From Cytauxzoon felis (taxonomy: Eukaryota > Apicomplexa > Aconoidasida > Piroplasmida > Theileriidae), in the NCBI GenBank assembly GCA_020283715.1, contig JAIQCW010000084.1, positions 1 to 64,000 of the forward strand: 64,000 bases of DNA, in the 5' to 3' direction. Both the position numbers and the translations under genes were made by a program. The notes under the pieces are model-generated. The model was not told where the DNA came from. It worked only from the letters and a program-made list of their open reading frames with translations, and did no database searches. Shown in pieces: positions 9,395 through 41,603 of the stretch. The stretch's first letter is position 1. The number at the start of each line of letters is the position of its first letter.

Positions 9395-11761
9395 ATGGCT
9401 AACGAGAACTTAAGTAAGGCTGCTATGTTTATGATGGGTTTTATTATGTTGTTACCACATCGTATTGCGTTATCATGTTCTCCGCATGTCATTAAACGTT
9501 TCCATCTTCCTCCTGCTACTGTACCATTGTTCATTTATAAGATACATAGTCCTATGGAACTAGCGAGTTTATGTGGTACGTTTTTGGCTAATGTTTTAAC
9601 ATGGGTTAATGATGCTACCATTAAAACAATGTATTTAAAGAGATACTGTTCCATAACCTTCATGTGGTTAATGTTTATCTGTTCCGTTATGACGTATTAT
9701 TTATTTATTTCTGGTGATGATTTTGGTTATTTAAATCATTTCTATTGGAATATGGTCTTTTTTACTCTTATTTATGGATTCATGTCATCATTTTGTTTTG
9801 GTATTAACTTTAATACTTCAATGGCTGCTGCTGGATTACCCACTTCAGGAGGTTTTACATTTATGTTACATAAAGTATATCATTGGTTATATGAAAAATA
9901 TCATTGGGCTGAATATGATTATTACCTCATGATCCTTCAATTGACTACTACTATGGGATTCCTCCTTTTCAGTTCCATCCTATGGACCGTCGATCAATGT
10001 TGGAATATATTGGAACCTGAATATAAGAGTTTTTTAATTCAAGGGATACTTGATGCTGCCAATAATAAAACTACAACTGAAGATAATCTCAAGGCAACAA
10101 GCATAACATATTATGTGAGCCAAAAAGCTCCTCGAAATGATAGTGGTAATAAATATCAATTACCTGCCGATAACGGTGATTATAAAACTATTAATGTCAA
10201 TGAGGATCTCGCCATGAGATGGGGAGGTGTTGCAAAGAAAATGACTGATGATGCTAAAAATGAACTGCGGAATTGTTGGAGAGGTGGTAATTATAAAAAA
10301 CCTATTATAGCACCTCTTGTTCTATCTGGAATAATGTCAGGATTATCATTCATTTCTATATTCATGGCTATGTTTGCAACATATTTTATGGATTCTTCCA
10401 AGTTGTATGTGTTAGTTGGTATAATCACCTCTATATTGGTTATAATTTCGATAATCTCCAACATACTTTCAGCCAATGCTTTCGATAAGGATGATCTTAA
10501 AGATGTAAATATTAAAAAGGCTAATTTAGGTGTATATACAGGCCACACAAATTGGTATAAAATAAACGCAACTGTTGGTGGTGGTAATACTGGTGATGCT
10601 ACTAATAATCCTACAGTAAATGATGTTCAAAATGCTACAGACAACAAATATTATTTTTAAGTAGCTGATATGTCCAAATTTATAGCACAGGTAGATACTG
10701 GCCACAATGCTGCAACTGCTAAAACTGATGAACTAGCTAAGGCTAATATTATTGCAGTTATTGGAATTGTATCAATTATTGTTATATTTGCATGCGTTTT
10801 ATTGTTTTCTATAATAATTTTTTATCGGGATAAAAATTCACTCGCCGCCCCACTTTTCCTCTTCACCTTCATTGCAACTACAGCTGCCATAACCTTCGGA
10901 GGAATTGCAATATCGAGTGCCGCTGCTGCGATCCACTTGTATAAGACAATAGGTGGTGGAGCTACTGATACTCAACCATTCAAGAATGCCATGTATAGTA
11001 GTTGGGTACTCCTTCCGTCGTTTGGAGTAATTGCATTCTTTGGTGTTGTTTTATCTTTAAAAGATTCATACATCAAGTGGCCTATTATCGGCTTCATATT
11101 ATATGGGGCAATTGCAGGTGGGGCTGCCATCTCTGCCAATGACAGTATAAAGAAACTATTTACCGGTGACCATGGTGGTCATGATTGGTCTCCTATTTTA
11201 ATGTTGGCGTATTCAATGGGTGTTGTTTATTTTTTTTACCCGAGTATTTCCCCATATCAATTAGTGGATGATGAGGAACTTGGTAATGATATTGAACTTT
11301 GGGCTCTTTTAATATCATCCATTCCAACCCTCCTTATAGCCTTATTGGATGTAGTTGATGCTAACGGACCAGGTGGAATTCACAGCGGTAGTAATTGGAC
11401 CGCACGTCCGTATTGGCATTGTACACATGTAGCCTTTGTTGCATACTATGTATGTGTTTACCTCTTCTTCTCCATATTACACTTTCCGGAAGGTAGAATT
11501 GGTAAATTCTTTAGAGGCCATTCTATGAGAACCAGATTATTATCTGTTACATTCAATACTGTTGAGGAAACTCTAGAGGCTGTTGGTTTTGCTGGAGGTG
11601 GTATGCAAGCTGGCGGTGTTACCGGTCCCATTATACAATTTAATGTCCTATTTGCATATTTCGTTATGACAGTATCCATGTTTACTGAAGATTCGTACAA
11701 GAATTTTTCTAGAATGACCTCACTACAAAGGTCCTCATTCCACATGCAAATATATTCATGA
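9395..11761 (+). pseudogene. Tpr-like polytopic membrane protein A, interrupted by one in-frame TAA
   Basis: Two collinear open stretches (9395-10660 and 10670-11761) are in the same frame, separated only by TAA at 10658-10660. The N-terminal block (KAAMFMMGFIMLLPHRIALS and 'PMELASLCGTFLANVLTWV') and the C-terminal block ('FYPSISPYQLVDDEE', 'LHFPEGRIGKFFRGH', 'EAVGFAGGG') are nearly identical to copy C at 17.9-20.1 kb, which is uninterrupted there. About ten hydrophobic segments predict a multi-pass protein. The central part is variable. The gene may be a young pseudogene. Alternatively, a weak 100-nt intron (donor near 10584, acceptor TTTATAG at 10683) would remove the stop in phase. Unlike the other copies it lies between genes on the + strand. 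The Tpr-related family name is from memory; the paralogy within the window is direct. Confidence 0.65.
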
Positions 11762-12138: not shown

Positions 12139-15100
12139 TTAGATAAAAGAGAGTATATTTGTGGGTGTAGTTAATGAGAAATGTTTTTTGAATTTGCGAT
12201 AGATTGGATGTGTATGATCGATTTTTATATCTGTTGTATCATTATTTCTTTGAAATTTGATTATATCAATTGATAACATTTGCATTTCTATAGATTCTAA
12301 AGCTATTAATCTTTGTATCATTGAATAAATTATATAAAATGTCATCATTATTATATGAATTATAAATATTGTTATCGCTAATGAATATGATTTACCAGAT
12401 TCTTTCATAAATATATAAACACAAAATACACGAATCATTAATGTTAATACAAATGCACGCTTATGAGAATTATATATCGCATAATTTAACCTATAATAAT
12501 AATATGAAAATTTATACATCCATAGAATACTATTACTCTAATGAATAATCAACCATAGGTGCATCTGATGTCATATCTACTTGAGGTCCAATCACTATCT
12601 TCACCTCTTCCACTAGGCGTGGAGCCTATCCACCTGAGGTTACAACCAACTCTCTTGGTCCTGCCGTCAGCTTCTCTAATTACCTATCTCTAAAGAGTAT
12701 AGCCACTCCCGGAGATCGTGGCGTTGTTGAAGGTTGTGAGGATGAAAGTAGAGTTAAGGATGTAACCTCGAGTGGACTACCCGCAGCTGATCTCAGGGAA
12801 GCGAAGGGGGAGGTAAATAAGAAGGCCACCACGGCGAGTGGAATGGAAGGTGGAAGAAAAGGTGGAGATAAAGATAGCAGGAAGGAAATGGATGTAACCT
12901 CAGGTGGAAAAGATGGGGTAATGGGGTATTCTGGGGATAATAAACCTCATAATAATGATAATAAACCCCATAATGTACCTGAAGTACAGGTTGATAATGA
13001 GTACAAGACCTCGAGTGGAAAACCCGAGAGCGATCTCCGGGAGCTGGAAGGGGAGCTAAATAGAGAAGCTGACGGCAGGATAGACCTCGAGTGGAGAGCC
13101 TCCACGGCGAGTGGAAGATAAGGTTATAACTTCAGGTGGGGCACCATTGGGTTTATTATCATCATTGTAGTGTAATTTATCCCCACTTCCCCATATTACA
13201 CTTTTTGTATATATCATTACATTATCAATTTCTGATGGTTTCCATTTAATCCTCGGTAAACATGGTAATCATACAAGTTGTTAAAAATGACAGTCCATTA
13301 TACTGTGATACAGCTCCATTGAATTCATCTCCCTGTTTCCCACCACCAGAAAAACCAATAGCCTCTAACCATTCTTGAACAACATTAAATATATTACCCA
13401 CAATACCAGCCACAATTATATTGTTCTTTACACGCCTACCAATCCAACCATCAGGGAAATGAAGCGTAGATATAAAAACATGGATGCATAAAATGTAAGG
13501 GATAGCAAACAACCATTGATAATGCCAGAACTTCCTGTGACCATGAATATTCCAATTCTTAGAATTAGCAGGTTTATCAGAAGTTGTATGATCACCTATA
13601 GTACTATGAGTTGGTCCACTCGTACATTTTTTTATCTCAGCAATTGCTTCCTTGGCTAATTTATTAGAAGGATTAGTTTTATCTTGACCACCAATATTTT
13701 GAATAGTTTCCCAGTCTGTAATAACCTGTTTTATTTGACCACCGGTATTTAGAGCGTTTTTCAGTTCAGTCGAATTTTGTACAGGATCAGGATTTGTGAC
13801 CGTAGGATCTACCTTCTTTCTAGCGTCGTTAACTTTCTTTCCGAATTTTTGATCACTAGCAGTATAATTAATAGTATTACTTTCATTTTGTTTCTGATAA
13901 TTTACTTTGGCTTTCATATGGGAATCCAAAGTTTTCAATTGCATGCGCATAGTTTCCTTAACATCCGTTCCATCTTTATTCACAAATTCCCCCCAATTCC
14001 CTGGACCTATACCACCTGGACCTTTCAACGTATCACCATTATCCAAAGTATCCATGACTGCGATCAAGTAAGTGGGGAGCGTAGAAATAAATTGGATCCA
14101 TAATTCAATAGTCTTACCGTCAAAGGGATCATCAACTAATGAATATGGTGATATGGAAGGGTAGAAGGCATAGACTGTTCCCAAGGAAAATGAAAGCATG
14201 AGAACTGGTGACCAGTGTGCGGGAACATCATATAATTCACCAATAGTCCCCTGTCTATTTAAATAGTTAACAAGAGCTTTAAGATCACTATCAGCAGGAG
14301 ATGTAGTTGCTTGATTTGTCCATTGGCCACCCGTTTGTGTGATATCAGCCTTGTGAAATATTTTCACATTCCCCATCATTTTAATCTTTAAAGCACCTTT
14401 ATTACCATTTTTATAATAATATACTTCAGAGACATTTGAAATATCATTAACTTCACCTTGTAATGTAGCTGTATTATTGTCACCATTCTTTATTGTCTTG
14501 TTCAATGTAAACTCCCCTCCACTTGCCAATGTATGGATATAGAATTCGAAATTGGTTCCGGCATAATTGTTCTTCTGATACTTAACTTTCACCGTATTAC
14601 CACCGCTACCATCATAAGTTTTATCTTTACCTACACCAGAAGGCATTTGATGAATTTCCAATTGAATTGTTGTTGGTGTTCCTTCACTTCCACCAGGACT
14701 TTCAGTACTTTTCATTTGCATCACTTCATTCCAAGTCCATAATGCGCCGGTGAGGGCGAGAGAGAGCACGGTAAACCAGTATTGTACAATAACGAGTGTA
14801 TAATCATAATCATCCCAATGAAAGCGAGACTATAGCCCTTTATAGATATAATGTATGAAGAATGTAACGAATCCTGAAGAAGGAACACCTGCTCCATATA
14901 ATGATGAATTGTAATTGACACCGAAGGTTAGATTGGAATATACACCATTTGTAAATGTGATTAATAATATACTCCAATAAAATTGATCAAAGTAACCGAA
15001 ATCTCCGCCGGATATAAAGGTTATAAACGAAATAACAGATGATATAAACATTGACCACACACCTAAAATAGACAACACTCTATTTGCAGTTATAGATTTA

Positions 15101-18100
15101 GTAACGGTATCCTTTATCCATGTTATAATATTTACTAATATTGTTGAGATCAAACTGGTGAGTTCCATAGGATTATGGATCTTGTATACAAACAGACTAA
15201 CAACTGTAGGTGTTAGGTGGAACCTCTTTAATACATGTGGAGCACAAGTCATTGCGATACGATGTGGAGTCAACATGACAAAACCAGCCAAGAACATAGC
15301 AGTCTTAGCTAAAGGACCAAATGGATCAGCCATTTTATAACAATATCCTTATCTCCATTTTCTTTATTCCAAATTATCACTCTCCCATAATTTAAAGTGA
15401 TAATTTGTCCTTCAGATATTCAACAGAGGTTAGTCCTTTCCACTCGCCGTGGAGGCCTTTTTATTTACTATCCCCTTCGCTTCCCTGAGATCAGCTACGG
15501 GTTCCACTTGAGGTTACATCCAACACATCCTTAGCACCATCTTCCATCATTCCCATGATGGATGATCCATCACTAACTTCGCCACGATCTCTGGGAGTGG
15601 CTCTACTCTTTAGAGATAGGTAATTAGAAGAGCTGTCTGCAAGACGACATCAGGTTGAGAGCTGTCTGAAGACAGAAGAGAATAGAACTTCAGGTGAAGA
15701 GCTATCTTTAGGACCTAAGGTTGAGTACCATCGATTGTTTATGTTCAATGTAATTATAGTGATAAAATATACCTGTATGATTTTATTAGATTGGGTCCGA
15801 TGAGTAATGAATGACTTGAACAAGTGGCGCACATATTTTTTGCATTATTGAGTGTGATTAATGATCCTAGAGATATTGTACAAGTTTCGTCATAGCATAT
15901 GGCTAAATGTATGTAAAAATATAAATTGAAGATAATTACCGGTGTTTAAATTGAGTGAAGTATTTAACAGCATAAATGTTTCTCTTAATTTATAAGACTT
16001 TTTTTTATTATTATATATAGAAGGATTGATATAATAAATATGATTCTTCCCCAATGTTACACATAGGAATGGATATAAATTATTTAATAGACTGATAAAC
16101 TAATTTAAATATTATGATGTATAGATATAATTAATACATACCGGTACTAATGAAAATATTAAAAATATATAATCTATAGGATCACCCATAAAATGTTCTG
16201 ATAATACACTCAATATCTCAGCATATTTATGATATTGTGCAAATGTTGTTAATACTATAGTAAATGATAATAACCTTATACATGTATATAAACCAATATA
16301 TAATGCATCCAATATAGGACCCAATAATAACCATGATAATAACATCAATAATGATGTCGATAATATCAATATCATACATATCTTCATATTAAAATTCATA
16401 CCATTATCATTATTACCAATTAGAAAACTCATATCATATATCGTACCTATACCCATCAACTCTTTACCCTATATTTTATAAATTTAAACAAAATAAATAT
16501 ACATTCCACTCGAGGTCCAATCCTACTTTCACTTCCACTCGCCGTTCCACCTGAGGTCGTCTTGCAGACAGCTCTTCTATTTACTTCCCCTTCCAGCTCC
16601 CGTAGATCGCTTCCAGGTTCCAATTGAGGTTATAGCCCTATTTCGACGAGATAAGACTAAAGTGATGGAATCCATGTTTGTCAGGATATCTCAATGAATA
16701 TAAATTGGAATGAAGTGAGGATGATAAAATTCAATACAATCATCAAAGTCCTCTTCAATGAAGTATTGATATTTATATTTCATTCAATATTCATCTCACA
16801 ATCTTCATGAGTTTCCCCAGAAATTCAGGATTTCCTTAAAACTTTGGAGGTAAAAATGAAGTTAGTGATTGGACCTCAAGTGGAATACCCGAAAGTGATC
16901 TACGGGAACTTGAGGGGGAAATAAATAGAGAAGGCCACCACGGCGAGTGGAAAGGAACGACTTCAGGTGGAATGGTGATGTAAAATATTTTGGTTCGAAA
17001 AATAATTAGATATGTATGGAGTAAACATACATCGATAAGGCAGTAGAGTAGTATAATGATTGTGATTTGTGTAGATGAGTATAATAATTGTGGTATAGTA
17101 AGTAGTACATTATGCCAAATATTGAATCGTAGATTATTATCTAATAAATGTGTTAAATCAGCACGAAATCCTACATTGAACATAAATAATATTTTTTGTA
17201 TGATATGTTTAAAATGTAAATTTTCTATAATAAAATTTTCTGGAATATTTAATTTAGAATTATTTTTCAAATTTTTATCATCTTTTTTATCATTTTGTAT
17301 CATAAAATTGAAATTTAAATGATCATCTAATAGAAATTTAAAAAAAATTTTAATAAAAAAAAATACAAACCCTTATTTTGATTTCCAACCTCCAATGTCT
17401 TTATACCAATCGTACAATGACGTATACGTGATATCTGAAATATACAAAAACATAAATTCTTCAACATAAAAGGTGATGATGCTAAAAAAAATATCATGAG
17501 AATAAATATGAAACATATTCCATAGAAGATTACGGAGAGTAATGGAAATAATGTTATCTCTACCAAAAGTTATACAACCTCTTTTCGTCCTCCACCTGAG
17601 GTCCAATCCACCTCTCTTCGTCCTGCCGTCAGCTTGTCCACATGAGGTCTTTCCACTAGGCGTGGTGCCTCTTCTACTTACTTCTCCCTCCGCTTCCCTG
17701 AGATCAGCTACGGGTTCTCCACTTGAGGTCCAGTACTACCTTCTTCACTGCCACGATCTCCGGGAGTGGCTTTACTCTTTAGAGATAGGTAATTAGAAGA
17801 GGGCTCCACGCCGAGTGGAATGGAGAGTAGGATTGGACTTCTAGTGGAACCCCATATACTATTCTGGGGTATTTTTCAAATTATGGTGTTAATTAACCCC
17901 AGTTACCCAATATTATAATTTTTATAAATACTTCCGGAAGAATTCCTGTATATTAACATGTACAAATCTTCAGTAAACATGGATACTGTCATAACGAAAT
18001 AAGACAATAGGACATTGAACTGTGTGATCGGACCAGTAAATCCAGTTTGATGACCACCTCCGGCAAATCCAACAGCCTCTAATAATTCTTCTACAGTATT

Positions 18101-21100
18101 GAATGTGACGGAGAGTAATGCAGTCCTGATGGGATGACCTTTAAAAAATTTACCAATTCTACCTTCTGGGAAGTGTAATATAATAAAGAAGAGGAAAATA
18201 ATCAAATAGTATGGAATGATGGCTACCCACGTAAGATGCCACAACATATGATTTTTAGATGTATAATCACTCGCGCCAGTATTATTTTTGTCGGCATTTG
18301 TATTATCTTCAGACTTATTACGATTAGGGTTAGACTTGTGGTAATTAGGTGGATATTTATACCATCTTCTATTTGGTCCAAGCACGTACCAACTAGCCAC
18401 ACCAGGCTTATAATCAATATCCAATAGTGCTATTAGAAGTGTTGGAATGGAGGAAATTAATAATGCCCACAATTCAATACCATTGGCAACCTCCTTGTCA
18501 TCGACTAATTGGTAGGGAGAAATACTCGGGTAAAAAAAATAAACAATACCCATAGATAACGTAAGCATACCAATAGGAGACCAATCAGCCCCATTACCTG
18601 TTCCTTTGGTAAATAATTTCTGTATACCAGAGTCTGCTGTTGCCGCAGAAACTATTGCCGCAATAGATCCAAATGACAAGAACCCAACAATAGGCCACTT
18701 AATGTACGAATAGTTTAAAGATAAAACAGCTCCAAATATCGCAATAAGTATGAAAGATGGAAGGAGTATACAACTACTAGCCAAGGCTTCATTCGTAGCA
18801 GCTTGTTGAGCTTGACCTTTATGCTTGTGGTAGTACAGTATAAACACTGCTATAGCACTTGATATTGCAATGCCTCCAAAGGTAAGGGCAGATGTAGATA
18901 CAATGAATATGAATAGAAATAGAGAAGCGGCGAGTGACTCGGTATATTTTAGGAATAACAAATATGAGAACATCAAAACAATCGTAAAGATAATCATCAA
19001 AACACCAATCCCAACAAGTATTAAAATCCTCGCAAAATTATAAGCGGCTACAAATTTATCAGCATCATAATTCTTGATTGCATGTTTCTCTACAAAGTTT
19101 CCCAATACTATAGCAATAATGAAGGTAATGCATGTGATTATACCAAAGTAAAATCCACCATATTTAGGATATTCCAAAAAGTCGGGATCATTAACATCCA
19201 AGGTTTTACAAAGATAAATCCCATAAAATAATCCAAATAACAAACTGAGGGCTATAATACCGGAAAATACGTAACCAATTATAGATGTATCTCCTCCTCC
19301 TTCTAAATTCGGATAAAGATTATTTTTTGGCGCCTCTAATGGTGCATTAAGTTTACCTTTTAGAGCAGCATCTGTAGGATCAGTACCACCTTTGTTAGCA
19401 GCCGCTTTTAGATTCTTGGCCTGCCATTCTTCATATTTAGGATTGCTTATATTCAAACATTGATCAACGGTCCACAGAATGGAAGTGAAGAGAAGGAATC
19501 CCATAGTAGTAGTTAATTGAAGGATCATTAAATTATAATCATATTCAGCCCAATGATATTTTTCATAAAACCAATGATATACTTTATGTAATATAAAGGT
19601 AAACCCACCGGAAGTAGGTAATCCAGCTCCAGCCAATGATGTGTTGAAGTTTACACCAAAGGCAAATGATGACATGAATCCATATATAAAGGTAAAAAAG
19701 ACCATATTCCAATAGAAATAATTTAAATAACCAAATTCATCACCAGAAATAAATAAATAATACGTCATAACGGAACAGAGAAACATTAACCACATAAAGG
19801 TTATGGAACAGTATCTCTTTAAATACATTGTTTTAATGGTAGCATCATTAACCCATGTTAAAACATTAGCCAAAAACGTACCACATAAACTCGCTAGTTC
19901 CATAGGACTATGTATCTTATAAATGAACAAACCAACTGTAGGCATAGGTAAGTGATACCTTTTCACAATATAAGGAGAACATGATAATGCGATACGGTGA
20001 GGCATCAACATAATAAAACCCATCATAAACATAGCAGCCTTACCTAACCACTCCTTAGGTTCAGCCATTATATGACAATATCCTCGGTTCCATTTTTCCT
20101 TATTCCAAATTATCCCCCTCCCCCGTTATTTAAAGTAAATAATTTATCCTTCAAATATTCAAAGAGGTTAGTCCTTTCCACTCGCCGTGGTGGCTTCTTC
20201 CAGTTACCTATCTCTAAAGAGTATAGCCACTCCCGGAGATCGTAGCGGAAGTATAGTCATTGGACCTCAGGTCGAGACCTCAAGTGGATTACCCGCAGCT
20301 GATCTCAGGGAAGCGAAGGGGGAAGTAAATAGAGAAGCTGACGGCAGGACTAGACCTCAAGTGGAGAGCTGTCTGCAAGACGAAGACAAGGTTGTAACTT
20401 CAGGTGGATTGGACTTTATGTGGACAAAGCTTTGATAATTACATTCCTTCAGATAAACATACCGTAGTAGTGTGTGGCTGATTGCCATGCGTAGAGTCTG
20501 ATGAAGAGAAATGGTAGATTGATGAAGCAGATTCCAACGATTGCTGCATATTTCCTGCAAAAGTATATATCGTTGGCGGTATTTGTATCGTTATTGGTTG
20601 AGAATGTGAGGTTGGCTTTGGATGTCCCGCTCATTGAAGGAAATGTATATCCGTGTAGGAATATTGCTGTAGCGACGAAGATACCGCATATAATTCGATA
20701 GAAGAAGTTATTAGTAATGAATGCATCATAATCGCTGGCGAATTTATGAAAGATATCAATGATGTCTAGCATATCGAAAATGACTTGTATGATCATATCG
20801 GTATGCATGAGTCGTTCAGATGAAATGACATTTAATCCGCCATATAAATGTACACCAGTACTGAATGCTAATATTGTATATAAAGTTGGTGTAATAAGTA
20901 ATAATAAAATAATTTCTATAGTAGCTCCACCAACAAATTGTAATAAGACACCTATTGATAATGATTGTGATGGTAATATCCAGAAATATATAACGAATGA
21001 TTTTATTGTTAATGTACGACTATATAATACCCAGCAACTAGACCCTTTATATCCAACCATCTTTGGTGATGCATATAACATCCAATGAATTGTACATATT

Positions 21101-26032: not shown

Positions 26033-27998
26033 ATATTTCTTATCTTTCAATATTTTATAATAATTAAATTTTATATTTGGTATTATACAATTGTTTTTTA
26101 ACCAATTTACATCTGTTAGATTATTTAATAATTTATCATCTATACCCCATATTTTATTTATTATTTCACTACTCTTCTCTATTACCCCATTAAGATAAGA
26201 ATTTTCTTCACTAATGTCATTAACCCCATTATTATTGGGATTTTTATCTTTATTACATTTCTTTGCCCCATAATGATAAATATTATCATCTTTGATTTGA
26301 TTATTATCCATATAGTAATTTCCTTTATATAATTTGGATAAATTTATACTTGTATACCACTCCTGTAACATTTCTATACCATTTACACTAATAATTTTAA
26401 TATTTGATATCTTTAATAAAATTATAATTAATGATTGAAGGAATAGAAGATAAGTATTTGAAAGTACATCATCATACCATAAATTTAATACACAACTCCC
26501 CAACTTTAAATCTACACTTTCACATTGTGATAATGATAATGTTATAATCAATTTAGTATTCAAATTTAAATCCTTTAAATCATACTTTAATAAAGCCCCA
26601 CAAAGTAATTGGAATGGTTTCATCAGATCACTTTTTATAAACAGTAATGATTTTACTAAGTGAATAATATAATTATCATTAAGAAACTAACATGTATAAA
26701 CTAAATGTGATCTGGGAATAAATTTATAAAATTCTCTCAATTTATAAAATGTTATATCATGTATATCAAGTAATACATCTAAAGATTATTAAACGTATAT
26801 AATATAACAAACCTGTACTTATAAAATTACAATACGTTAAACCCTCTAATATCATCGAAATATTATATGAAGTAGAATAATATATAGATAATTCTATAAA
26901 TCTTAACAATGGCTTATATATTTCTTCTAATGATATATTATATTCATTCATTGAATGTATCGATGATATTTTATAAATCAACCCCATTTCTGATAATTGG
27001 CCCCATAGTTTACATAATGTTAGGAATATGTGGATAAACAAGTGGGGATAATGTTTAGGATTGATATTATTGATAACATTAATACACTTATTATATAATG
27101 ATATATTTAAATCATTTAATATATTATCTCTTAATAATTTTTCATGTATTTTCAATACTAACAAAACATTCCCATAATTATTATCCAATTTATCAGTTAA
27201 TATGTCCATTACAACATGAACTTTCTTGAGATCGAATTTATCAGGTCTTATATACCTGTTCAAATTAGCAATAATTTCATCTATACGCATCCTATTTAAC
27301 CATACAATCATTCTATTCTCATTTAAATTCATAACATTACCCTTAATATCATCATAGATACCATCCATCAAAGGTACTTTATATGACTGATTAAGAAATA
27401 TTTTCTTTGTCTTACAGACAGCTTCTCCATTCGAGGTTACAATCCTACTCTCCTTTCCACTCGGCGTTCCACCTTCTCTACTCCTACTCTCTTTTCCACT
27501 CGCCGTGGTGGCCTTCTTATTTACTTCCCCCTCAAGTTCCCGTAGATCACTTTCGGGTTCCACTTGAGGTACAATGACTACACTTCTGCCACGATCTCTG
27601 GGAGTGGCTCTACCGTTTACGGATAGGTAGTTGGAGGAGGCTCCACGCCTAGTGGAAAGAGAGTTGGATTGGACCTCAGGTGGAACGGCGAGTGGAGAAG
27701 AGGTGGTTGTAACCTCGGGTGTAGATTTTACGGCAGAAATATCGTTGTCAAAATTATGCTTCAATGGATGGGTATCAATGTCGATATGATTGATTATTTT
27801 ATTAGCATTTGTAGTGGAAGACGTATTAATTATAGTATTTTTAATGTTATTATAACCTGAGATATTTGGATTCCTGGGTATTGATGTATGTAATTTTAGA
27901 CAAACAACATACTTTTTGGGACATTTTGCGATATCATATGATTTAACAATTGGTAATGTTAAAATATGTTTATAATTAATATAATGTGCTCCACGCAT
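26021..27998 (-). CDS. Hypothetical helical protein, possibly mitochondrial RAP/HPR-type, repeat-derived insert
   Basis: Three segments join in phase: 27998 to about 26838 (donor at ACAG|GTTTGT), a small exon encoding 'VLLDIHDITFYKLREFYKF', and an exon from about 26667 that continues through 'KSLLFIKSDLMKPFQLL' to the stop at 26021. The N-terminus is basic and hydroxylated (MRGAHYINYKHIL), compatible with a mitochondrial presequence. The body is Leu/Ile/Asn-rich and predicted helical, in the style of apicomplexan FASTK/RAP organellar RNA proteins, but I see no RAP domain. A mosaic-repeat cluster (27412-27730) is open in this frame (RGASSNYLSVNGRATPRDRG). It could be translated, or removed as a phase-0 intron (GCC|GTAAAA ... 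TGTAAG|ACA). Overlaps the end of F1 alpha tail to tail by 12 bp. Confidence 0.55.
27412..27730. repeat. Mosaic cluster 20, open in the frame of the 26021-27998 gene
   Basis: Contains CCGT-TT-ACGG (27613-27622) and GGC-GTGGA-GCC. No stop occurs in the host frame for about 320 bp. Confidence 0.8.
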
Positions 27999-28605: not shown

Positions 28606-31600
28606 CTATTTAAAATTAGTCATTAGATCATTTAAAAATGACTTTGAATTATGTATGTATGTACCACCCACAAGTATAGGGACTCCGGTTGATTTACTCA
28701 GCATATAACAATCTCTAGCTTCAGCGTACGTTATACCTCCGACCATAAAAACTATAACCTGAAGGAATTTGAATGAAGTGTTATAAGGTGGAATTAAGAA
28801 TAACAATATTTCACACCCGTAGCTGATCTCAGGGAAGCGGAGGGGGTAGTAAAGAGAGAAGCCTCCACGGCTAGTGGAAGAGGTGAAGGTAGTGATTGTA
28901 ACCTCAAGTGGAAGAGAAGGATGATATAAGAATATTGTGAATTGATATTGTTTTCAAATACCCATCACATGAGAACATTGTAGATACGCACGTTGTTAAC
29001 ATTAATAGTACGTTAAACTGATTGATAGATCCAACAAAACCATCATGACTTTGTACAGCTCCGCCACCAAATGCAACGGATTCCATGAGTTCTTGCACAG
29101 TATTGAATATAACACTAAAAAATCCTACCACAAAAGGATTATCCTTGACGTGTCTACCTATAAATCCTTCAGGAAAGTGGAGTGTAGTGAAAAATACATA
29201 AAGGCATATTAAATAAGGGACACCACCTATAATCCATACATAATGATACCAATCTCTATGAACTTCTTTATGATCAGGTATTTCCCACGGATTATAATCC
29301 TGTCGGTATTTAATCCATTTTTTACCGGGACCTACGGGACCACCAGGGATATCCAAATCCAGGATAGCCAAAAAAAGATTGGGTATTGCGCATATAGCTA
29401 CAACCCATAAATCAATCTTCTCCGCCCTTTCAGGATCAATTAAAGAATATGGGGATATAGTGGGGTAAAAAGCATAAATTGTTCCCAGTGAAAACGATAA
29501 CATTAAAATCGGTGACCAGTGATAACCATTATCAAAGCATACCAATTCTAAAAATTTACCCTGTCTATTTAATATAGCATTAAGCTTAGATTCAATTCTA
29601 TCCTTTTTAGTTTGATCAAGATTAGCCAGATCTCCTGATGCATTTATATCATTCATATTCCCATGTTCTTCCCACTTCTTACCTCTACCATACCAATGAT
29701 TTGTAGCATTACCACCACCAGTGTCCTTCTTTCTATAATACAAGAGAAGAGGTGTTTCTAGTTTAGGAGTATCCTGCTCATCCTTCTTATAAAATACCCA
29801 TACTTTATTATTAGCATCAATATCTATAGTGCTATTACGATCCAATTCCTGGATACCCCTGATTGGTTTTCCCTTGTGAGTAATCATATTTATCGTCATA
29901 CTACTGTTTGTCACGGAATGTTCGTAACCTATGAATCCATCAATTGTGGTATCTTCTGTTACAGTAATATCGCTACCAGCCTGAGGACGTCCTTTGTATG
30001 TACTTTGATTCTCAAGCTTAACTTCGTATTGTGCAATGAGTGTAGTAAATTCACCTCCAAGTAGAGTTTTAACTGTAGGATCATCAGGGTCTTTATCAGC
30101 AAGTGCAGTAGTTATTTTTACCCAGGAATTACCTCTCTTATAATAAGTACGAGTATTTGCATCTATCTTAACACATACAATCAATGGGAATTGACGGTCA
30201 CTGATATCACTATTGTGGTAATATACATAAACTGCTTCAACGTTTGTACCATACTCCTTTATATCACTCATAATAGAACCGTTAAGAATAATTGAACCTA
30301 ATTTGAAGCTGCTTGCAGAATGCTTATACCTCACATAATTGTTTGGAACTCCACCATTGCCCTGAGTATTGCCGTCCGTCTTCTCAACCGTAATATCTTG
30401 GCTCCCAGTTCTATACTTAATATTATTACCAGCAACATTAGGCCTCTTATCTAATTTAATTACATAATCGGTACCAGTTACAATAAGGGTACTATTTTTT
30501 GTAGCTGTTTCAAGGTTTGTTTCGTTAACACTTGTTGGATTTGAAGTAGGTAAATTTCCAGATGTGACTTTACTCCAATCAGTGGCTGAACCACCTGCCG
30601 CATACCACTTGTTCTTAGAAATACTTCCGTCCGGAGATATACATATTACTTTTGGCTGATGTATTTGCGTGGGATCTTTATAATAAACATATATAGCACC
30701 CTGATCATTAATTGTCATACTCATATTATCACTCAAACTTCCATCAGTACTCTGCATCAACTGATCGCTATGTGTTATCTTTAAAAGCTTAAATGGAGCA
30801 CTAGCACTATTAGAATGTTTATAGCCAACCCAGTTAGTACTAGTACCAGCAGGTTGAACTGTAACCTTCGTCACTTTAATTTTTGTTCCTCCAGATGAAT
30901 AAAAACCTCCATCATTATTAGACCCGGTAGGCGCTTGACTTATATCAATTTCAGTTCCAGAGCCACCACCACCGGGGGGCCCAGTACCACCCATTTGATT
31001 CACTTGATCCCAAGTCCATAATCCGTCGGTTAGAGCAATGAAGAATATGGTAACCCAATACTGTAAAACAACCAACTTATAATCATAATCATCCCAAAAG
31101 TATATGTTGTAAAAGTATTTATAAGTGTTGTGTATAATAAATGTAACAAAAGAAGACGTGGGCATTCCAGCTCCGTACATTGTTGCATTATAATTAACAC
31201 CGAAACCAAAGTTAGAAGCCATACCATTAGCAAATGTGATTGAAACTACAGACCAATAAAAGAGTTCAAAATTTCCATAATCATCACCACTAATAAATAA
31301 GAAGTAGGATACAACAGTGGTAAGAAACATAAACCACATTGTAATACAGGAGATTATCCTTTGGAACATCTTCTTTTTTGCTTCATCCTCTTTTTTACTG
31401 AATGCTGCATCAGCAATCCATGTTACTACGTTTGCTAGAAATGTAGATATTAAACTTGATAATTCCATAGGATTGTGAATCTTGTAAATGAATAATGGTA
31501 CAGTGGCTGGCGGTAAATGGAAACGTTTAATGACATGGTTAGCACAAAGCATAGCTATCCTATGCGGAGTTAACATAATAAACCCATTTAAAAACATAGA

Positions 31601-34259
31601 AATTACACCCAACCATTGATTCCAATCCATTATAGAATAATAACCTTGGTTCCATTTTTTCTTTACCCCAAATTATCCCTCTCCCCCGTCATTTAAAGAA
31701 ATAATACATTTACCGAATATAACTACTACACTCGAGATCCAATCACTATCTTCACCTCTTCCACTCGCCGTGGTGGCCTCTTCTATTTACCTCCCCCTCC
31801 GCTTCCCTGAGATCAGCTACGGGTATCCCGCCTGATGTCCAATATCCATTATCACCTTGCAGTACATGTGAATCATGGGGTTTATTATCTTTATTATGAG
31901 GTTTATTATCCCCATAACCCTCTTTTACCCCACTTTTTCCACTCGAGGTCCAATCCCTAACCTCATCTCCAACCTCTGTTCGTCCTGCCGTCAGCTCTTA
32001 CATTTACCTCCCCCTCAAACTCCCGTAGATCGTTCTCGGGTTCCACTTGAGGTTACATCCTTAATTCTACTTCCATCACTGTTCCACTCGCCGTGGAGGC
32101 TTTCCTTATTTACCTCTCCCTCCGCTTCCCTGAGATCAGCTACGGGTTCTCCACTTGAGGTCCAATCACTAAACCTCCATACTGCCACGATCTCTGGGAG
32201 TGGCTCTACTCTTTAGAGATGAATAAATAGATGAAGCCACCACGGCGAGTGGAATGAATAGTTGGATTGTAACCTCAAGTGGAGAAGATGTGGATTGTAC
32301 CTCGTGTGATTATTATTTACGTGAATAAACATACTGATGCGGGTTTATTTTTGAGATTGTATCCAAGATCGTATGCTCCTGGTACTATATTATATAATTC
32401 TTCATTTAATTTCCCTTTGATTGCATCATTGCATATATGATATAATTGTGATTTATATTGTGTATATGGATTATTGTCCTGAAGATGTTGGATATATAAT
32501 GTGTAATTATAATTCAATATACTTGCATATTTTTAAATTTATTTTTAATTGAATCGAATGAAAATTCATTTTGTTTATAATTAAAATGTGTTTGAAATTT
32601 TAAAATTGTATTAATTATATTTATAAAATGTTCTAATTTATTAATTTTTAAATAATCTTTAATTTTATTTAAATTTTCTTCATCTTGTTCATTATATAAT
32701 GCGTATAATAAAATTAATTTTAATTTATATTCTTCTTTTATTAATTTATTATTTATTACATCAATTATATCATTTATTATATTTTTTTTATTATTTATTA
32801 TATCATTTTCTATTAATGTTAATTGTAATAAATTATTTTCTTGTATTATTTTCGATAATTCATGTAATATTTTTATATGCTTTGTAATATCATTTATTAT
32901 CCTTGCATTATTAGGCAACAATTCCATGAGCTTAGTGAAGGAGGGACGATGTTCCGACGAAGGAGGAACGTCCGACGAACGAAGTGAGGAGGAAGGACCT
33001 TCTGAACGTAGTGAAGAAGGAGGAAAATTCTTCGACGAACGAAGTGAGGGAGGAATTTTCTCCGAACATTGTGAGGAGGGATGTGGGGAGGAAGAAAATT
33101 TATTCGAGGAAAATTCATTGATGGAAGAAAATTTATTCGAGGAAAATTCATTGACGGAGGAAAATTTATTTCCATCATTCCCATCATTCCCACAACTTCC
33201 ACCACCTCCATAACTTCTTTCGATAATTTCATTTAAATCGGATTCAACATCAGTAAATTCATTATATAAATGTTTAATATAAAATTCATCAGTATAATTT
33301 AATATATACTTTAAATCATCAATTATAATATTATGATTATTATCATCATCAATATTTAATAATTCATAAATCATAGATTGATATGTCCATTGATTAATTA
33401 ATGGTGTTATACAATCATCTCTACGATTTAATATTAATAATATACAACCATTTGTTGTTGTTGTAGTAGTGGTAGTATATTTATTATATAATTGTATTAT
33501 AGATTGAAAATTTAAATTATTATTATTTATATTAGCTTGTAAATAATTACATATAGTTTGTATAATTTTATTATTCTTCTCCCTCTCCTCCTTCCACTCC
33601 CCCTTCCTCATCACCTTCCTATCCCCCACCCCCACCCCCCCCTTCACCTCCCCCTCCTTCTTATAAATTATAGTCGGTACTTGATTCAATACACAACAAA
33701 TAGAATATAAACTATTGATAATATTCTTTATAATATCATCATCTATTATAAAATTTATATTGACATTATATAAATTATACATTAATGGTATATTTAATGT
33801 ATATAAATTATCATTTATAACATAAAAATCTATAAAATATTCATATATACCATAAATTAATTCTAATACATCATGTTTTGCAATCAATTCCATATCATCA
33901 TCTAATAATTTATTTATAAAAAATATATAATACTCTTTAAAATGTGGATATTTTAATTCATTACATAATTTCATTATATTATCTTTATTAGGATCTATTA
34001 TATATATCACCTTTATATATTTCATATTCAATTCTATACCATCCTCTTTAAATATATCTATATCATCAATACATAATGTTAATATAATCTCATTCTCTAA
34101 TAAATATGAATGATTATATACTAATGATATCATCCTACTAACATTCTTATCCATAATCAATACTTTCATACCTTTAACCCTCTCTATTATCGATGCATAA
34201 TTATTACGCATCAATGACAAGATACTATCGAAGGCATACGGGTTCATGACTGTACTCAA
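28606..34259 (-). CDS. VPS45 (Sec1/Munc18 family) with a Tpr-like gene in its second intron
   Basis: SM protein that chaperones syntaxin/SNARE assembly at the Golgi/endosome; in apicomplexans it is linked to secretory-organelle traffic. The exons are 32523-34259, 32335-32478 and 28606-28758, all phase 0, 677 residues. Family landmarks in order: GMKVLIMDKNVSRMISLVY, 'YIIDPNKDNI', 'ILNRRDDCITPLINQWTYQS', 'AIKGKLNEELYN' and, in the last exon, 'VIVFMVGGITYAEA' and 'GVPILVGGTYIHNSKSFL'. The last match proves that the 3' exon belongs to VPS45 although it lies 3.6 kb away. Intron 1 is 44 nt. Intron 2 (28759-32334) holds the complete Tpr-like gene D on the same strand plus repeat clusters. Exon 1 also has a Ser-rich low-complexity insertion (about residues 345-445). 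Confidence 0.92.
28815..28922. repeat. Mosaic cluster 21, 3' bracket of Tpr-like D
   Basis: Short; it supplies the last codons and the stop of copy D and starts 57 bp from the last VPS45 exon. Confidence 0.8.
28904..31630 (-). CDS. Tpr-like polytopic protein D with three extracellular-type modules, nested in VPS45 intron
   Basis: A 908-residue intact frame. Residues 1-205 are the conserved membrane block (MLTPHRIAMLCANHVIKRFH, 'PMELSSLISTFLANVVTWI', WDDYDYKLVVLQYWV). Residues about 215-740 carry three diverged modules of about 130-160 residues with the pattern Y[KE]HS..., V[YF]VYY/VFYK..., PL[IL]VC/LLYY, then W-Y-x-R/G ... W; similar modules occur widely in Theileria equi surface-type proteins as I recall. 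Residues about 755-900 are the conserved C-terminal block (HWSPILMLSFSLGTIYAFYP, LHFPEGFIGRHVK, 'NTVQELMESVAFGGG'). The last codons run into the adjoining repeat. No disruption is visible and it has its own conserved leader, so it is probably expressed. Host and guest share strand. Confidence 0.75.
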   Translation of the reverse strand: MDWNQWLGVISMFLNGFIMLTPHRIAMLCANHVIKRFHLPPATVPLFIYKIHNPMELSSLISTFLANVVTWIADAAFSKKEDEAKKKMFQRIISCITMWFMFLTTVVSYFLFISGDDYGNFELFYWSVVSITFANGMASNFGFGVNYNATMYGAGMPTSSFVTFIIHNTYKYFYNIYFWDDYDYKLVVLQYWVTIFFIALTDGLWTWDQVNQMGGTGPPGGGGSGTEIDISQAPTGSNNDGGFYSSGGTKIKVTKVTVQPAGTSTNWVGYKHSNSASAPFKLLKITHSDQLMQSTDGSLSDNMSMTINDQGAIYVYYKDPTQIHQPKVICISPDGSISKNKWYAAGGSATDWSKVTSGNLPTSNPTSVNETNLETATKNSTLIVTGTDYVIKLDKRPNVAGNNIKYRTGSQDITVEKTDGNTQGNGGVPNNYVRYKHSASSFKLGSIILNGSIMSDIKEYGTNVEAVYVYYHNSDISDRQFPLIVCVKIDANTRTYYKRGNSWVKITTALADKDPDDPTVKTLLGGEFTTLIAQYEVKLENQSTYKGRPQAGSDITVTEDTTIDGFIGYEHSVTNSSMTINMITHKGKPIRGIQELDRNSTIDIDANNKVWVFYKKDEQDTPKLETPLLLYYRKKDTGGGNATNHWYGRGKKWEEHGNMNDINASGDLANLDQTKKDRIESKLNAILNRQGKFLELVCFDNGYHWSPILMLSFSLGTIYAFYPTISPYSLIDPERAEKIDLWVVAICAIPNLFLAILDLDIPGGPVGPGKKWIKYRQDYNPWEIPDHKEVHRDWYHYVWIIGGVPYLICLYVFFTTLHFPEGFIGRHVKDNPFVVGFFSVIFNTVQELMESVAFGGGAVQSHDGFVGSINQFNVLLMLTTCVSTMFSCDGYLKTISIHNILISSFSST
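31631..31725 (-). promoter_or_regulatory. Conserved 5' leader of Tpr-like gene D
   Basis: On the minus strand: CGGGGGAGAGGGATAATTTG, then GGTAAAGAAAAAATGGAACC and AAGGTTATTATTC before the ATG. The same elements and spacing occur in copies A-C. The block lies inside a VPS45 intron, so it would have to act as a promoter within a transcribed region. Confidence 0.5.
31728..32312. repeat. Mosaic cluster 22, 5' bracket of Tpr-like D
   Basis: One of the longest clusters; it ends 23 bp before the VPS45 exon-2 donor. Confidence 0.85.
32926..33215. repeat. Ser/Glu-rich minisatellite inside VPS45 exon 1
   Basis: Imperfect copies of a short GC-richer unit (core GAACGAAGTGAGGGAGGA on the plus strand) and of TTATTCGAGGAAAATTCA (at least three copies at about 33098-33170). 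On the coding strand they give Ser-rich peptides such as KFSSINEFSSNKFSS and 'SLRSS'. This lies in a loop region absent from animal VPS45. Related units recur at about 50040 in the RAP gene. Confidence 0.6.
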
Positions 34260-35805: not shown

Positions 35806-38800
35806 TTATACTTTCCTCCTCTTTTGACCTTTTGATTCACCTTTAGCCTTAACATTATTTTTTATAATTAATTTGTTGACATCTGCCTCATCTTTAAGTA
35901 TACCAACCCTAGACACCTGTGGACCTAAAATACGAGTTAACTTTGATTTAGCTTTCGCTTCCACATTATTATAAATATTCCCTTGTGACTTTAATCTTAA
36001 TGATGTTATACCTTCCACAACCATTTCACGACTCAAGCCATAAGACTCTATCATAGCAGCAGCACCCTCTATATCATTACTTAATAATAAATCCATGACC
36101 TATAGAAATATAATATGATACGAATAATAATGAAATGAATATAATAATACACTTTTCAATAAGAGTATATCGTCATGTGAATGCACTAACAACTTCGAAA
36201 TTCATTTTTCCATTGCATGGAGCTCTCCACTCGAGGTCCATTCCACCTGAGGTCCTGCCGTCAGCTTTTTTATTTACTTCCCCCTCCGCTTCCCTGAGAT
36301 CAGCTACGGGTAATTGAAGTTAATGAACACATTACAATGTGGTAACGATCATTGAAATAGGTCCAGATCTAGTATAACCTGGATCACCAGAACCAACTTG
36401 TTTACTAATTTTCTCGAGTTCGGTTTTAAGTTCTTGTACAATTGTGGTACCACCATCTCCACCCGGTTTTATCCTTTCAAATTCAGTGGTTTCCTTCTGC
36501 CATATATAGCCGCTGCCACTCTTCTTCCGCTTATACCATACATTGTTACCAGATTCAGTAACATTATTCTTAGTGTAATCTTTTGATAGGCATATTAACA
36601 GTGGTTTCTCACGTTTTCCGGCAGAACCACCATCTTCAGCAGTAAAATATACATATACACCTCCATTAGCTGTGGTTGTTGTAAAACCATCAATATCAGT
36701 TTGAGGAATACCATCCGTAATGTGACCATGTATTGTTATGCGATTAATCTTTTGACCTTGAGGAATAGGATGTTTATAACCTTTAAATTGAGCAGTATCA
36801 CTACCTGAATTTTCTTCAGTTACTTCTTGAGGAGTAATTTTAGATCCTTCAGCATTTGCTTTGTAACCACTAGAACTAGCTTGCTGTTCAAGCCTAATTT
36901 CATATTTATCTTTGAGACCTTCAAGTGCTTTTTTAAGTTCACCACCTGTACTACCAGCGGTTGTAGATTCTGGATCTACACCATTAAGTGGTTGGCCAGC
37001 GTCACTCCATGTTTGACCTCTCTTATAATATGTCTGACCTGATGGCGATCTCTTAACACAAACAATTAAAGGGAATTGATGATCAGGATCTCCAGTTTTA
37101 TGGTAATATACGAAGATTTTAGAGACATTTTGTTCAGTTACGTCTGTTAACTTATTTCCATTGTGTTTAAATATAATTGTATTATTGCCAGAAATTGAAA
37201 CTCGATGTTCATAAGCTGTATATCCGCCAGGTGCTGGACTACCTTGGGTAACAGTAACATATGCTCCCTTTGTTCTATACTTAATAGTTTTGGTAGGAGC
37301 CGGCCTCTTGTCTAATTTAATTATATAATTATTGCCGGGGGTAATAGTAATATTTCCAGCACTAGCTCCATCAAGGTCTGCATCTTTAAGACTTTCTGGA
37401 TTTTTACCGGTGAATTTTTCATTTGCATCACTCCAATCAGTGGGACCACTACCTGCCTTATACCACGTATGAGTGGTGCTGTTCGTAGATATACATATTA
37501 CTTTAGGCTGAGTTATATCATCTCCTTGATAATAAACATATATACCACCCTGAGCATTAATCGCCATGTTCATATTATCACTCAAATCACTTCCTTTCAT
37601 AACAACATCACTGTGAGTTATCTTTCCGAGTTTAAATCCAGAACCACTAACAGAGTTAGAATGTTTGTAATAAACCCATGAACCACCAACTGCTTTCTTT
37701 TCCACTTGAATTGTTTTACCTCCAGAAACATATTTGCCTCCATTAGTAGCGCCGACAGCAGTAGGTGCCGTACTTATATCAATTTCAACAGAATCTGGTT
37801 TTTTATAACCTTTATCACCAGTAAGTTGTTGACTAATTTCATCGAGTTTTCCTTTAAGTTGTTGGTTAATTGAAGGACCTGGAGGTATATTATCATAATC
37901 AGTTGGTACATCTGTCCATGTTGTTGCACCCGTACGTTTATACCATTTATTCTTCTGACTATCACCTGCGGCACCCTCCTTCGATAAACATATTAACAGA
38001 GGTTTTTGATAAGTGGTATCATCATTTTCAAAATATACGTATACTAATCGTTTTCCAGTAATAGGATTACCATTACCTAAAGTTTCAACATTTACTACTT
38101 GCCCATGTACAGTAATTCGATTAATATCCTTAATAACTCCAAGATCATGTTTAAAACCTTTAAATTACCATTAGGTGACAATGGACTAACGATAACAACT
38201 TGATGGTTGTCAGTAGGACGTGATTTATATGAATTGCCAATGTCCTCAAGTTTAATCTCAACATCTTCTTTAATTTGATTAACAAGTGGTTGAAGTTCAC
38301 TATCATTAGTAGGTGTAGTCGCTTCATTTGTCCATGTGCCACCAGAAGTAACGTCATCCTTATGAAATATCTTCGTGTCATTCGAGGTTTTAATCTTTAA
38401 AGCACCTTTATTACCAGTGCTCTGCTTATAATAATACACTTCAAAGACATCTAAAATATTAGTTCCACCTTGTAATGTACCAGTTCTACTATCATTCTTT
38501 ATATCCTTGTTCAATGTAAATGATCCTCCATTTGGTAATGAGTGGATGTAGAATTGGAAACCTGTGCTTTGATAATTTGAACTTTGATACTTCACTTTCA
38601 CCGTATTATTACCTAAGGTTTCGGTATAAGTTCTATCTTGACCTACAGAAAGACCAACACCTTCACTAATATTCATTTGAATTGTTGGTATAGATGGAGT
38701 TTGTGGATTCATTTGCTTCACTTGATCCAAAGTCCATAATGTACCGGTAGAAATGTATGTCTTTCACAAATCAACTTGAATATCCAATAAGACTAATTCA

Positions 38801-41603
38801 TCACCTGGAAGCGATCTACGGGAGCTGGAAGGGGAAGTAAATAGAGAAGGCCACCACGGCGAGTGGAACAGAAGCTGTAACCTCAGATGGAACAGCGAGT
38901 GGGAATGAGAGATTGATGTGCATCTCTTGATATATTACAATTTCAACTTACGCTACTATAAATATTATCTAGATAGCCGTCAATAACAAGGTTGATACCG
39001 CTCGTTGTGGTATTTAAAATATTCATACCCATTTCGTATATTAATCTCCTAATGGCATTAATATATTAATCATCATGTCATCCTTACATATTTTTATTCC
39101 TTGTTGATGTATTTCCAAGGAATTGTGGGAATGTTAATCTCTCCTTCAATTGTCCATGAGCATTTTTGATCTAGAGTAGTAAATGATAATATGGTAACTT
39201 CAATTTACTTCAAATGACGGTATTATAGCTGTAACTACAGATAAATCTGGTAATAATGAATAATTTTGGGTCTGTATAAATGAAGGATGAAGAGTGAGAT
39301 CAAATGAATACCTTCTTAATACTTTGCTCAATTATATCAGAATAGATGTATAATAGTGTTAATTTACCCAACAATGGCATTGGTTGTTTAAGATTATATA
39401 AATACTTGATATAATTTTCCTATTTATAGATGGAATGTGGTGGAGATGGAGATGATGGTTATGATGATGGAGATTAACTTCAATAAAATATACCTGTATC
39501 ATCAAGGGCATTAAATTGAAATCAGTGAAGAACAATTCATTTATATCATTAACTCTATCTCTAAACTTCTCTAGACGATTATTAAATATCCTACCGCAAC
39601 ATTCGAATGGATTAACGGCGTACTGAAGGATGAATTTTAATGATGAGGGAGAAATATGAACGTACGTTATCATCTTTCTTATTGTTGTAAGTAAATGATA
39701 AGTCTTGAGAATAATTAAACTGTATAAAGTTCAATGCAAATCTTAAATCACCATTAGATTGATGATACAGGTCATTTAATTTTGGATCTGTTATTGGTAT
39801 ACCTTCAGTTTTACATACACCTTTTAATCTCGCTACAAATTCATTAATTGTAGGGCTATTAAATTTCATTTCATATGATTTACTCATTAATGTATTCATC
39901 TATAGTTTATAAAATTATATTTTCCAACATGAACAATTCATCAAACTAACCTTTTGATAAGATTTATCATTACAGACACATATAATTGGGCATTTTGTAG
40001 TATCAATCAATGATACTACAGCTTGGATACCACCACGATCACCACTAGACATACCATCAATTTCATCTAATAACAACAATGTCTTATTCATAACCTTATC
40101 TGATTTAACTAAATTTAATGCTTGCCCACCTGTAGCCATCATTGATATCTTCTCTATAGAAGTTTTATTACGTAAATCTGATGCATTAAATTCAATACAT
40201 TTATAACCACATGATTCTGCTAATAATCTTACACATGTAGTTTTACCTATACCAGGTGGACCATTCAACAATATACATTTTGAATTTACATTCTCTACAC
40301 GATAACCTACACGTTGTACAGGCTTCTTATTACCCTTCTTATGAACATCATCCCATGATGTTAACCACTCTTTCATCTTTTCTATAACACTTCTATTACC
40401 AATCATTTCTAATAATCTCTTTGGTCTATATTTTTCTGTCAAGGGTAACGTAGATTTGATTGACTGACGTTGAGGTGGTAAAGTTTCAGATGGCTTTATG
40501 TTGTCTTTAGAACTTTTATCATCACATTCAGATGAGTGTTTGTAGTCATCAGAAAGGTCATTTTGTCCTGCAACCTTTTTCCATTCATCATCAGGTGAAT
40601 ATTCAATCAATTTTAAAAACTTTGATTCGTTTAATATGTTTATTTTAGCCTTGCCATTTTTATTGAACTCCTTTGCTTTTTTATACTTTACACCCGATGT
40701 ATAACTTCTACCATCCTCTAATTTATTTCCATGTACTAGATAATTTGTTATACCACTGACACCTGATACGACTATACCACCTAATTTTCTAATAATGTTC
40801 ATAGCTTTCACACGATCCATACATTCCAATTCACCAGTCAATACAAACCTTTTTCCAGCTACACCTTCATTTACTGGTTCCTTCTCTTCCTCTTTTACAT
40901 TATCAACATCCTCCACTTCCTCATCATCTGAGAACAAACTATCCATTTTCTCCTCTTTGGAATTGATATTTGTATCCTTTCTCAAATTCATCTGTGTTTT
41001 AGGTGTTGTTTCCTCATCTTTTAATGTAGACACGGTAGATATGTCCTTGACCGTTGGTAACCGTTCAGGTGAACCTGTAAAATGTGTATCATTTCCATGT
41101 GGATTAATTGTAGATAAATAATTATTAAAATCTATATATTGCTTATTTGAGTCGTTACCAGAATTTAATTTAGTAGAAGGATCAATATATTTTTTGGTAT
41201 TGTCCATCCATGTTTGTATATCAGTTTGTACATTACTATTACCATTACCATTACTTTTACCTACAATTTCATCATTAATCCAATCCCTTAATTGCTTCTT
41301 CTTCTCACGTTCGTTTATATCTACAGTTTTACACTCATCTTCTTCATCTTCAGAATCAACTTTTATCTTCTTCAATCTTTTACGTTTAACTTTAGTACTT
41401 ACAGACTCTGGTGTATCGAAATTGTCGTTGGTTTTAGTAGATAAGTCACTATTCTGGCTAGAGATAAAATACTTTTCATTATTTGACTTTGATGATGTAA
41501 GACCCTTATCATTTATAATACGCCTATTAACATTAGATGTGCAATTATTAACACCATCTCCATCATTTTCGCCAGATTTATTGAAAAAAGATCGTATGTC
41601 CAT
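35806..41603 (-). CDS. Replication factor C subunit 1 (RFC1), Tpr-like remnant in last intron
   Basis: Large subunit of the PCNA clamp loader. The eight exons are 39951-41603, 39666-39899, 39494-39622, 39312-39419, 39209-39271, 39088-39170, 38952-39048 and 35806-36099. All phases close and give 886 residues. It starts MDIRSFF, a PIP-box-like end as in yeast RFC1. A BRCT domain follows (GKRFVLTGELECMDRV ... TNYLVHGNKLEDG), then AAA+ with Walker A GPPGIGKT and Walker B LLLDEIDG, and the C-terminal collar ('INELFFTDFNLMPLMIQENY', 'AAAMIESYGLS'), ending in a basic tail. The first six introns are 37-74 nt. The seventh (36100-38951, 2.85 kb) encloses the Tpr-like remnant E and two repeat clusters. 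The final exon is identified by the collar motif, so the long intron is real. Confidence 0.92.
36208..36312. repeat. Mosaic cluster 23, 3' bracket of Tpr-like E
   Basis: A short cluster with CCAT-TGC-ATGG; it lies inside the last RFC1 intron. Confidence 0.8.
36332..38760 (-). pseudogene. Tpr-like remnant E: module region only, frameshifted
   Basis: Lies inside the last RFC1 intron on the same strand. It begins with a broken trace of the segment preceding 'LDQVKQM', has one module like copy B (EVYYYKQSTGNKGALKIKT), and then further modules like copy D (YKHSNS, GIYVYYQ, PKVICIS, WYKAGSGPTDWSD; FVYYHKTG, FPLIVCVK, YYKRGQTW). Frames change between 38095 and 37705, so the reading frame is broken at least twice. 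The N-terminal membrane block is missing, and the C-terminal block stops at 'SGPISMIV', where copy D has HWSPILML. Repeat clusters begin at once on both sides. It appears to be a decayed cassette that lost both conserved ends. Confidence 0.7.
38800..38915. repeat. Mosaic cluster 24, 5' bracket of Tpr-like E
   Basis: Directly adjoins the truncated 5' edge of the remnant; no leader remains between them. Confidence 0.8.

Follow-up and report, generated by a model that had tools for sequence, protein, structure and literature searches.

A Tpr-like membrane-protein gene nested in a VPS45 intron of Cytauxzoon felis has relatives in the same orientation within introns of other conserved genes

The window, that is, the whole stretch of DNA analyzed here, covers positions 1 to 64000 of contig C50, a 96175-base contig from the 8.62 Mb, 181-contig assembly of Cytauxzoon felis, and has a GC content of 31.5 %. 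Two 18S patterns found no match in this assembly; its compact introns and the gene family described below are like those of piroplasms of the Theileria group. Its minus strand carries a VPS45 gene of three exons, which yield a product of 673 amino acids when spliced and translated, and the second intron of this gene contains a complete reading frame for a membrane protein (Table 1). The guest, as we call this gene, was already given as an intact same-strand gene nested in VPS45 by a preliminary description made from the letters alone, and our gene model reproduces exactly its coordinates for the intron, the exon and the guest, as well as the phase 0 join of the last exon to exon 2.

Table 1 Features of the VPS45 and RFC1 loci in the window
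Feature	Position	Strand	Remarks
VPS45 exon 1	34247-32523	-	575 codons; Pfam Sec1 E 1.2e-62 on ORF 32514-34247
VPS45 intron 1	32522-32479	-	44 nt, GTATAT..TTCAG, phase 0
VPS45 exon 2	32478-32335	-	48 codons; covered by the alignment to solved Vps45 chains
VPS45 intron 2 (host of guest)	32334-28759	-	3576 nt, GTATGT..CCTTCAG, phase 0
VPS45 exon 3	28758-28606	-	50 codons and stop; Sec1 profile 528-575, E 2.3e-11
Guest gene, Tpr-like membrane protein	28904-31630	-	908 codons, no internal stop
Conserved 5' module with upstream ATG	31631-31705	-	directly before the start codon of the VPS45 guest
GC-rich interspersed repeat island, guest 3' end	28815-28971	.	overlaps the last codons of the guest
GC-rich interspersed repeat island, upstream of guest	31750-31826	.	
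GC-rich interspersed repeat island, upstream of guest	31937-32286	.	
RFC1 5' coding part	39915-41603	-	BRCT, AAA; Pfam AAA, Rad17, BRCT
RFC1 intron	36100-38951	-	2852 nt, GTAAGT..CTATAG, placed by hand
Nested Tpr-like copy in RFC1	36335-38763	-	tblastn to guest residues 227-691
RFC1 C-terminal exon	35809-36099	-	PF08519 profile 102-154, E 1.9e-4, 22 bits (cut-off 23)

When the spliced VPS45 product was compared with the PDB using phmmer, the Vps45 chains 6xm1 and 6xjl (E 6.1e-44 and 6.4e-44) headed the 14 matched sequences, followed by syntaxin-binding/Sec1 chains (E 9.4e-14 and worse) and Sly1 (4.4e-7). Both exon junctions (after residues 575 and 623) fall inside one gapped Vps45 alignment (query 559-667). 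When the genome was searched for the Sec1 family, seven matches were obtained, with other Sec1-family genes on contigs C139, C6 and C13, and the terminal stretch of VPS45 (Sec1 profile 528-575) was found once, at 28627-28764. Read onward into intron 2, exon 2 meets a stop after five codons, so the last 50 residues of VPS45 need the splice. The host is unbroken in frame and splice signals, as the preliminary description had proposed for a multigene-family member lying in a housekeeping intron. In length, intron 2 exceeds some 30- to 65-fold the introns of Theileria parva, for which the part of PMC2612703 dealing with intron length gives modal lengths of 55 and 80 bp and means by position of 84-108 bp. 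Exon 1 also holds a low-complexity insert of short direct repeats (32938-33160), an in-frame Ser/Pro-rich stretch between the second and third Vps45-aligned stretches.

The guest is bracketed by high-copy repeat islands, which might have caused a false join during assembly. We regard such an artefact as highly improbable. Two false joins would have had to keep the parts of VPS45 in order and on one strand, a second copy of these parts was not seen in the assembly, and the same anatomy was found at nine loci, with no island flagged in four of the introns concerned (CHMP1, TRF4-type, RAP and tRNA synthetase; see below). The entire guest frame lies between two exons of a single host, which is the mark of a nested gene, and we are practically certain that this anatomy is real at VPS45.

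The guest protein is hydrophobic towards both ends, with several segments within residues 1-206 and five in its last ~205 residues (705-727, 736-767, 794-825, 831-855 and 864-884) at a Kyte-Doolittle threshold of 1.0, and its middle part has no such segment; at 1.3 the last segment is split and 831-855 is lost. It matched at least 113 stretches of the genome on many contigs, a figure based on the scoring of 50 out of 388 first-look candidates. No Pfam match was obtained at E<=5 and no homologue at E<=0.001 in a large protein set (8000 candidates scored), where no Theileria Tpr surfaced. The Tpr name thus rests on topology and dispersal, by which the guest fits that family without proven homology. 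In the part of PMC10730637 that defines them, Tpr genes are single-exon genes with a conserved C-terminal region of 245 amino acids, typically with five helices. The guest family resembles the Tpr/Tar genes of Theileria in being large and dispersed, with single uninterrupted frames (in the guest, 908 codons that read as one exon) and five hydrophobic segments in a C-terminal membrane region. It differs in its location, as the words "intron" and "nested" are absent from the main text of PMC10730637. The Tar-related Family 3 of Theileria equi, as described in the relevant passages of PMC3505731, has 109 members on all four chromosomes and is about 30 % conserved with Tar. Those passages set it apart from the guest, since its members are mostly about 50 kDa as against 908 residues, and they make no mention of intron nesting.

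Against its eight nearest copies the guest showed dN of 0.13-0.16 and dS of 0.70-1.20 over 208-214 N-terminal codons, and the resulting dN/dS (0.12-0.22) describes both compared lineages jointly. Two other copies in the window (9395-11761 and 13249-15333) are interrupted by stops, unlike the VPS45 guest.

The neighbourhoods of 35 clusters of the family, some of which have short flanks or sit at the end of a contig, were then inspected. In nine clusters, exons of one conserved gene flank the family copy on both sides. The hosts are VPS45, RFC1, OLA1, PRP28/DDX23, adenylate kinase, CHMP1, a TRF4-type poly(A) polymerase, a RAP-domain gene and a class I tRNA synthetase, which by its motifs is probably isoleucyl. 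VPS45 and RFC1 are the two cases inside the window. The single nested gene of the preliminary description is real but understated the situation, being one of nine proven cases among the 35 clusters, and with the same anatomy at eight other loci chance does not explain the nesting in VPS45. The host introns are 1686 to 4417 nt long and GT..AG ends could be assigned to all nine; the eight outside VPS45 were placed by hand, the PRP28 donor (GTTGAG) being the least sure.

In RFC1, the match to the C-terminal exon (Table 1) is accompanied upstream of the guest by PF08519 profile 13-33 (E 0.21) and the RFC1 lid domain (E 3.5e-6), and these matches are individually weak. The nested copy consists of two open stretches in two frames (38763-38098 and 38164-36335), and an N-terminal domain was not seen in it. 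About 1.5 kb separate the end of the last RFC1 exon from the start of VPS45, which follows downstream. For OLA1, residues 21-204 of the solved chain 5ee0 are matched upstream of the guest and residues 204-281 and 280-334 downstream; for PRP28/DDX23 the corresponding parts of 5dtu are 168-231 and 266-348. The adenylate kinase host matches PF00406 at 10-51 upstream and at 45-96 and 93-149 downstream. CHMP1 matches 8v2q residues 23-89 upstream (E 9.1e-15) and, individually weakly, 13gm 127-168 downstream (E 0.0028). In the TRF4-type host the upstream match to PF22600 is also weak by itself (E 8.5e-6, slightly under the cut-off) and 3nyb residues 160-234 are matched downstream. Addition of the downstream exon raises the PF08373 score of the RAP-domain host from 20.5 bits (profile 1-25) to 39.5 bits (1-36). 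The tRNA synthetase matches PF00133 at 50-186 and 184-345, and the copy in its intron is decayed, with stops.

Six further loci with both flanks examined gave no proven nested case; two are provisional. The host of a family copy at C120:22252-27804 is probably an acetyl-CoA transporter (Acatn) gene, the C-terminal exon of which was recognized by eye. Among the remaining clusters, several are intergenic (e.g. on C20, C28, C29 and C68), while others either sit at the end of a contig or are undecided.

All nine guests are read in the direction of their host (two-sided binomial p 0.0039). Inspection of the 35 clusters by eye revealed no antisense host; this pass used no coding-score filter, covered the clusters with segments on both sides and took the segments lying mostly outside repeat islands. 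The sense orientation fits a guest expression that may be tied to host transcription, as had been suggested for VPS45. In the strongest form of this idea the guest would have no promoter of its own; splicing out of the intron would give the VPS45 mRNA and retention of the intron, or transcript ending within it, the guest mRNA, and same-strand nesting would become a requirement. The intron dimensions of the CHMP1, TRF4-type and RAP hosts agree with this, since only 12-58 nt separate the donor from the 5' module described below and 47-89 nt the guest stop from the acceptor, so that a promoter and a terminator for the guest alone would have little space. However, the same module precedes intergenic copies that have no surrounding host, and no usual pyrimidine-rich splice acceptor was seen in it by eye. 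We consider expression driven entirely by the host possible, yet unlikely on the whole.

The conserved leader that had been noticed in front of the VPS45 guest is real, as a module of ~75 nt recurs before the family copies. The module (~75-80 nt) consists of a T-rich part, CTTTAAATAACGGGGAG, GGGATAATTTGG and then an A-rich part carrying an upstream ATG. It abuts the ATG in 19 of the 26 copies with a recognizable start, nested and intergenic alike. The other seven include the nested TRF4-type copy, in which the module is found about 200 nt upstream and the homology of two relatives starts at an equal distance. A two-part pattern of the module matched the genome 29 times and its reversed control 0 times, and for a second pattern the corresponding figures are 20 and 0; not all matches of either pattern are confirmed family copies. 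In 16 of the 26 copies, including a three-copy subgroup with a different upstream sequence, a very short upstream ORF (M-E-P-R-I-x and similar) terminates one or two bases short of the main ATG; an example is 819-842 of the C141 locus (L036). In the VPS45 guest the stop of this ORF is lost and it reads 71 nt into the gene. A different feature was observed in the TRF4-type subgroup, namely a conserved ~55-residue reading that lies in another frame ahead of the start codon (C160:42693-42899 and C4:19953-20159).

That intergenic copies, too, carry the module in front of them speaks for signals belonging to the guest itself, and it appears fairly likely to us that initiation is at least partly the guest's own. 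A separate guest transcript has sequence support from the shared module and from the dN/dS below 1. Alternatively, the module might be no more than a 5' UTR, and the promoter might lie farther upstream or within the host. According to the part of PMC4761415 concerned with motifs near transcription starts, T. parva has a G-box-like motif (CCCCAT) there. The G-run of the module resembles that motif, and the likeness goes no further.

When the upstream regions of the 26 copies were compared pairwise, 241 homology rows were obtained for 233 of the 325 pairs. Among the 60 most similar rows, 36 start 60-80 nt before the ATG, including pairs that are 85-88 % identical, 6 extend further, 2 of TRF4-type start at their own distant module and 16 cover the coding part only. 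For all 241 rows the corresponding figures are 104 starting at the module, 24 extending beyond it, 2 at the TRF4-type module and 107 only inside the coding part (4 unclassed). The VPS45 guest takes part in 5 of the 24 extended rows, possibly through its repeat island at 31750-31826. The clearest case is the TRF4-type guest. Between it and two relatives outside that host the homology begins at 19911, 11 nt into the host intron, and the two relatives share 130-150 nt more with each other. At the 3' side the similarity is in most cases lost around the stop codon, and the final codons differ from locus to locus; the copies on C120, C160, C162 and C71 have more 3' flank in common. The module before the ATG, together with homology that often begins there, suggests a discrete cassette with its own putative 5' signals. 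Ongoing gene conversion could mimic a sharp cassette edge, and the data agree with either movement of the whole unit or old insertions homogenized by gene conversion.

With the cassette removed, the introns of the TRF4-type, CHMP1 and RAP hosts retain 12 + 66, 58 + 47 and 51 + 89 nt, and VPS45 intron 2 without cassette and repeat islands retains 26 + 56 nt. As these leftover lengths are near the usual intron size, insertion of cassettes into existing short introns is favoured. The guest-bearing spliceosomal intron might instead be the moving unit and spread by reverse splicing, always in sense; this would account for the orientation at all nine loci and for the guest nearly filling the intron in the CHMP1, TRF4-type and RAP hosts. 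Movement of such introner-like elements would leave homology from donor to acceptor, but in the six nested guests compared it begins at or inside the module, 11-58 nt inside the TRF4-type, RAP and CHMP1 introns and further inside those of OLA1, adenylate kinase and PRP28. Several copies are moreover intergenic and a single reverse-transcriptase locus was found, which makes a mobile intron very unlikely.

Repeat islands were also considered as a route into the intron. Genome-wide, 40 of 3030 first-look candidates were scored. Positions 1-42400 of the window, the guest-rich part, hold 32 flagged islands, one of which is the module itself, and the remainder holds 1. Islands flank the guest on both sides in five of the nine host introns (the upstream one in PRP28 overlaps the module), and inverted copies at 28815-28898 and 31740-31824 enclose the VPS45 guest, as would be expected if ectopic recombination between islands had carried guests into introns. 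The four remaining host introns (CHMP1, TRF4-type, RAP and tRNA synthetase), however, contain no flagged island, islands are generally common where the guests are dense, and in many pairs the cassette edge lies at the module and not at an island. We conclude that the islands are neighbours of the guests and not their general vehicle, recombination between them being an improbable origin of the nesting. Elsewhere in the window the GC-rich interspersed repeat, at 27400-27720, crosses an open frame (26766-27998, minus strand), so islands may form part of coding sequence.

The account that we consider probable as a whole is that of a cassette in a short intron, over which the host is spliced and from which the guest starts its own transcript. 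A dispersed family of variable membrane-protein genes would move, or would have done so in the past, in the form of a discrete cassette running from the conserved ~75-nt 5' module to the neighbourhood of the stop codon. Such a cassette would lie in sense within an otherwise ordinary short intron of VPS45 and of each of at least eight further genes. Judging from the intact frames and splice signals, the host pre-mRNA is presumably spliced over the guest, and a separate guest mRNA is most likely produced under the direction of signals within the module or beside it. The short upstream ORF, itself present in the sequence, probably tunes translation of the guest. Sense orientation was probably kept either because a guest in antisense would disturb its host or because the guest benefits from being transcribed along with it. 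A further and rather doubtful idea is that housekeeping introns serve as a regular expression niche, in which cassettes settle in sense only and the choice between splicing out and retention couples a variant protein to the transcription of an essential gene.

Antigen-gene clusters are known in piroplasms from ves1 of Babesia bovis, a variable multigene family of a related parasite. The ves1 genes are not known to lie in introns of housekeeping genes. Complete genes within host introns are familiar in animals, and the part of PMC3786989 on Drosophila 2mit places this gene inside an intron of timeless2. The 2mit gene runs opposite to its host, whereas here one gene family occupies different hosts and is in sense in nine of nine cases. 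In the literature searched we found no description of a variable parasite membrane-protein family recurring in introns of conserved genes. A fast-changing family here shares transcription units with genes that the cell probably cannot lose. Location in these introns could shield copies from deletion, provide chromatin that is always open and link guest expression to splicing, and gene finders applied to such genomes may split host genes or miss their last exons.
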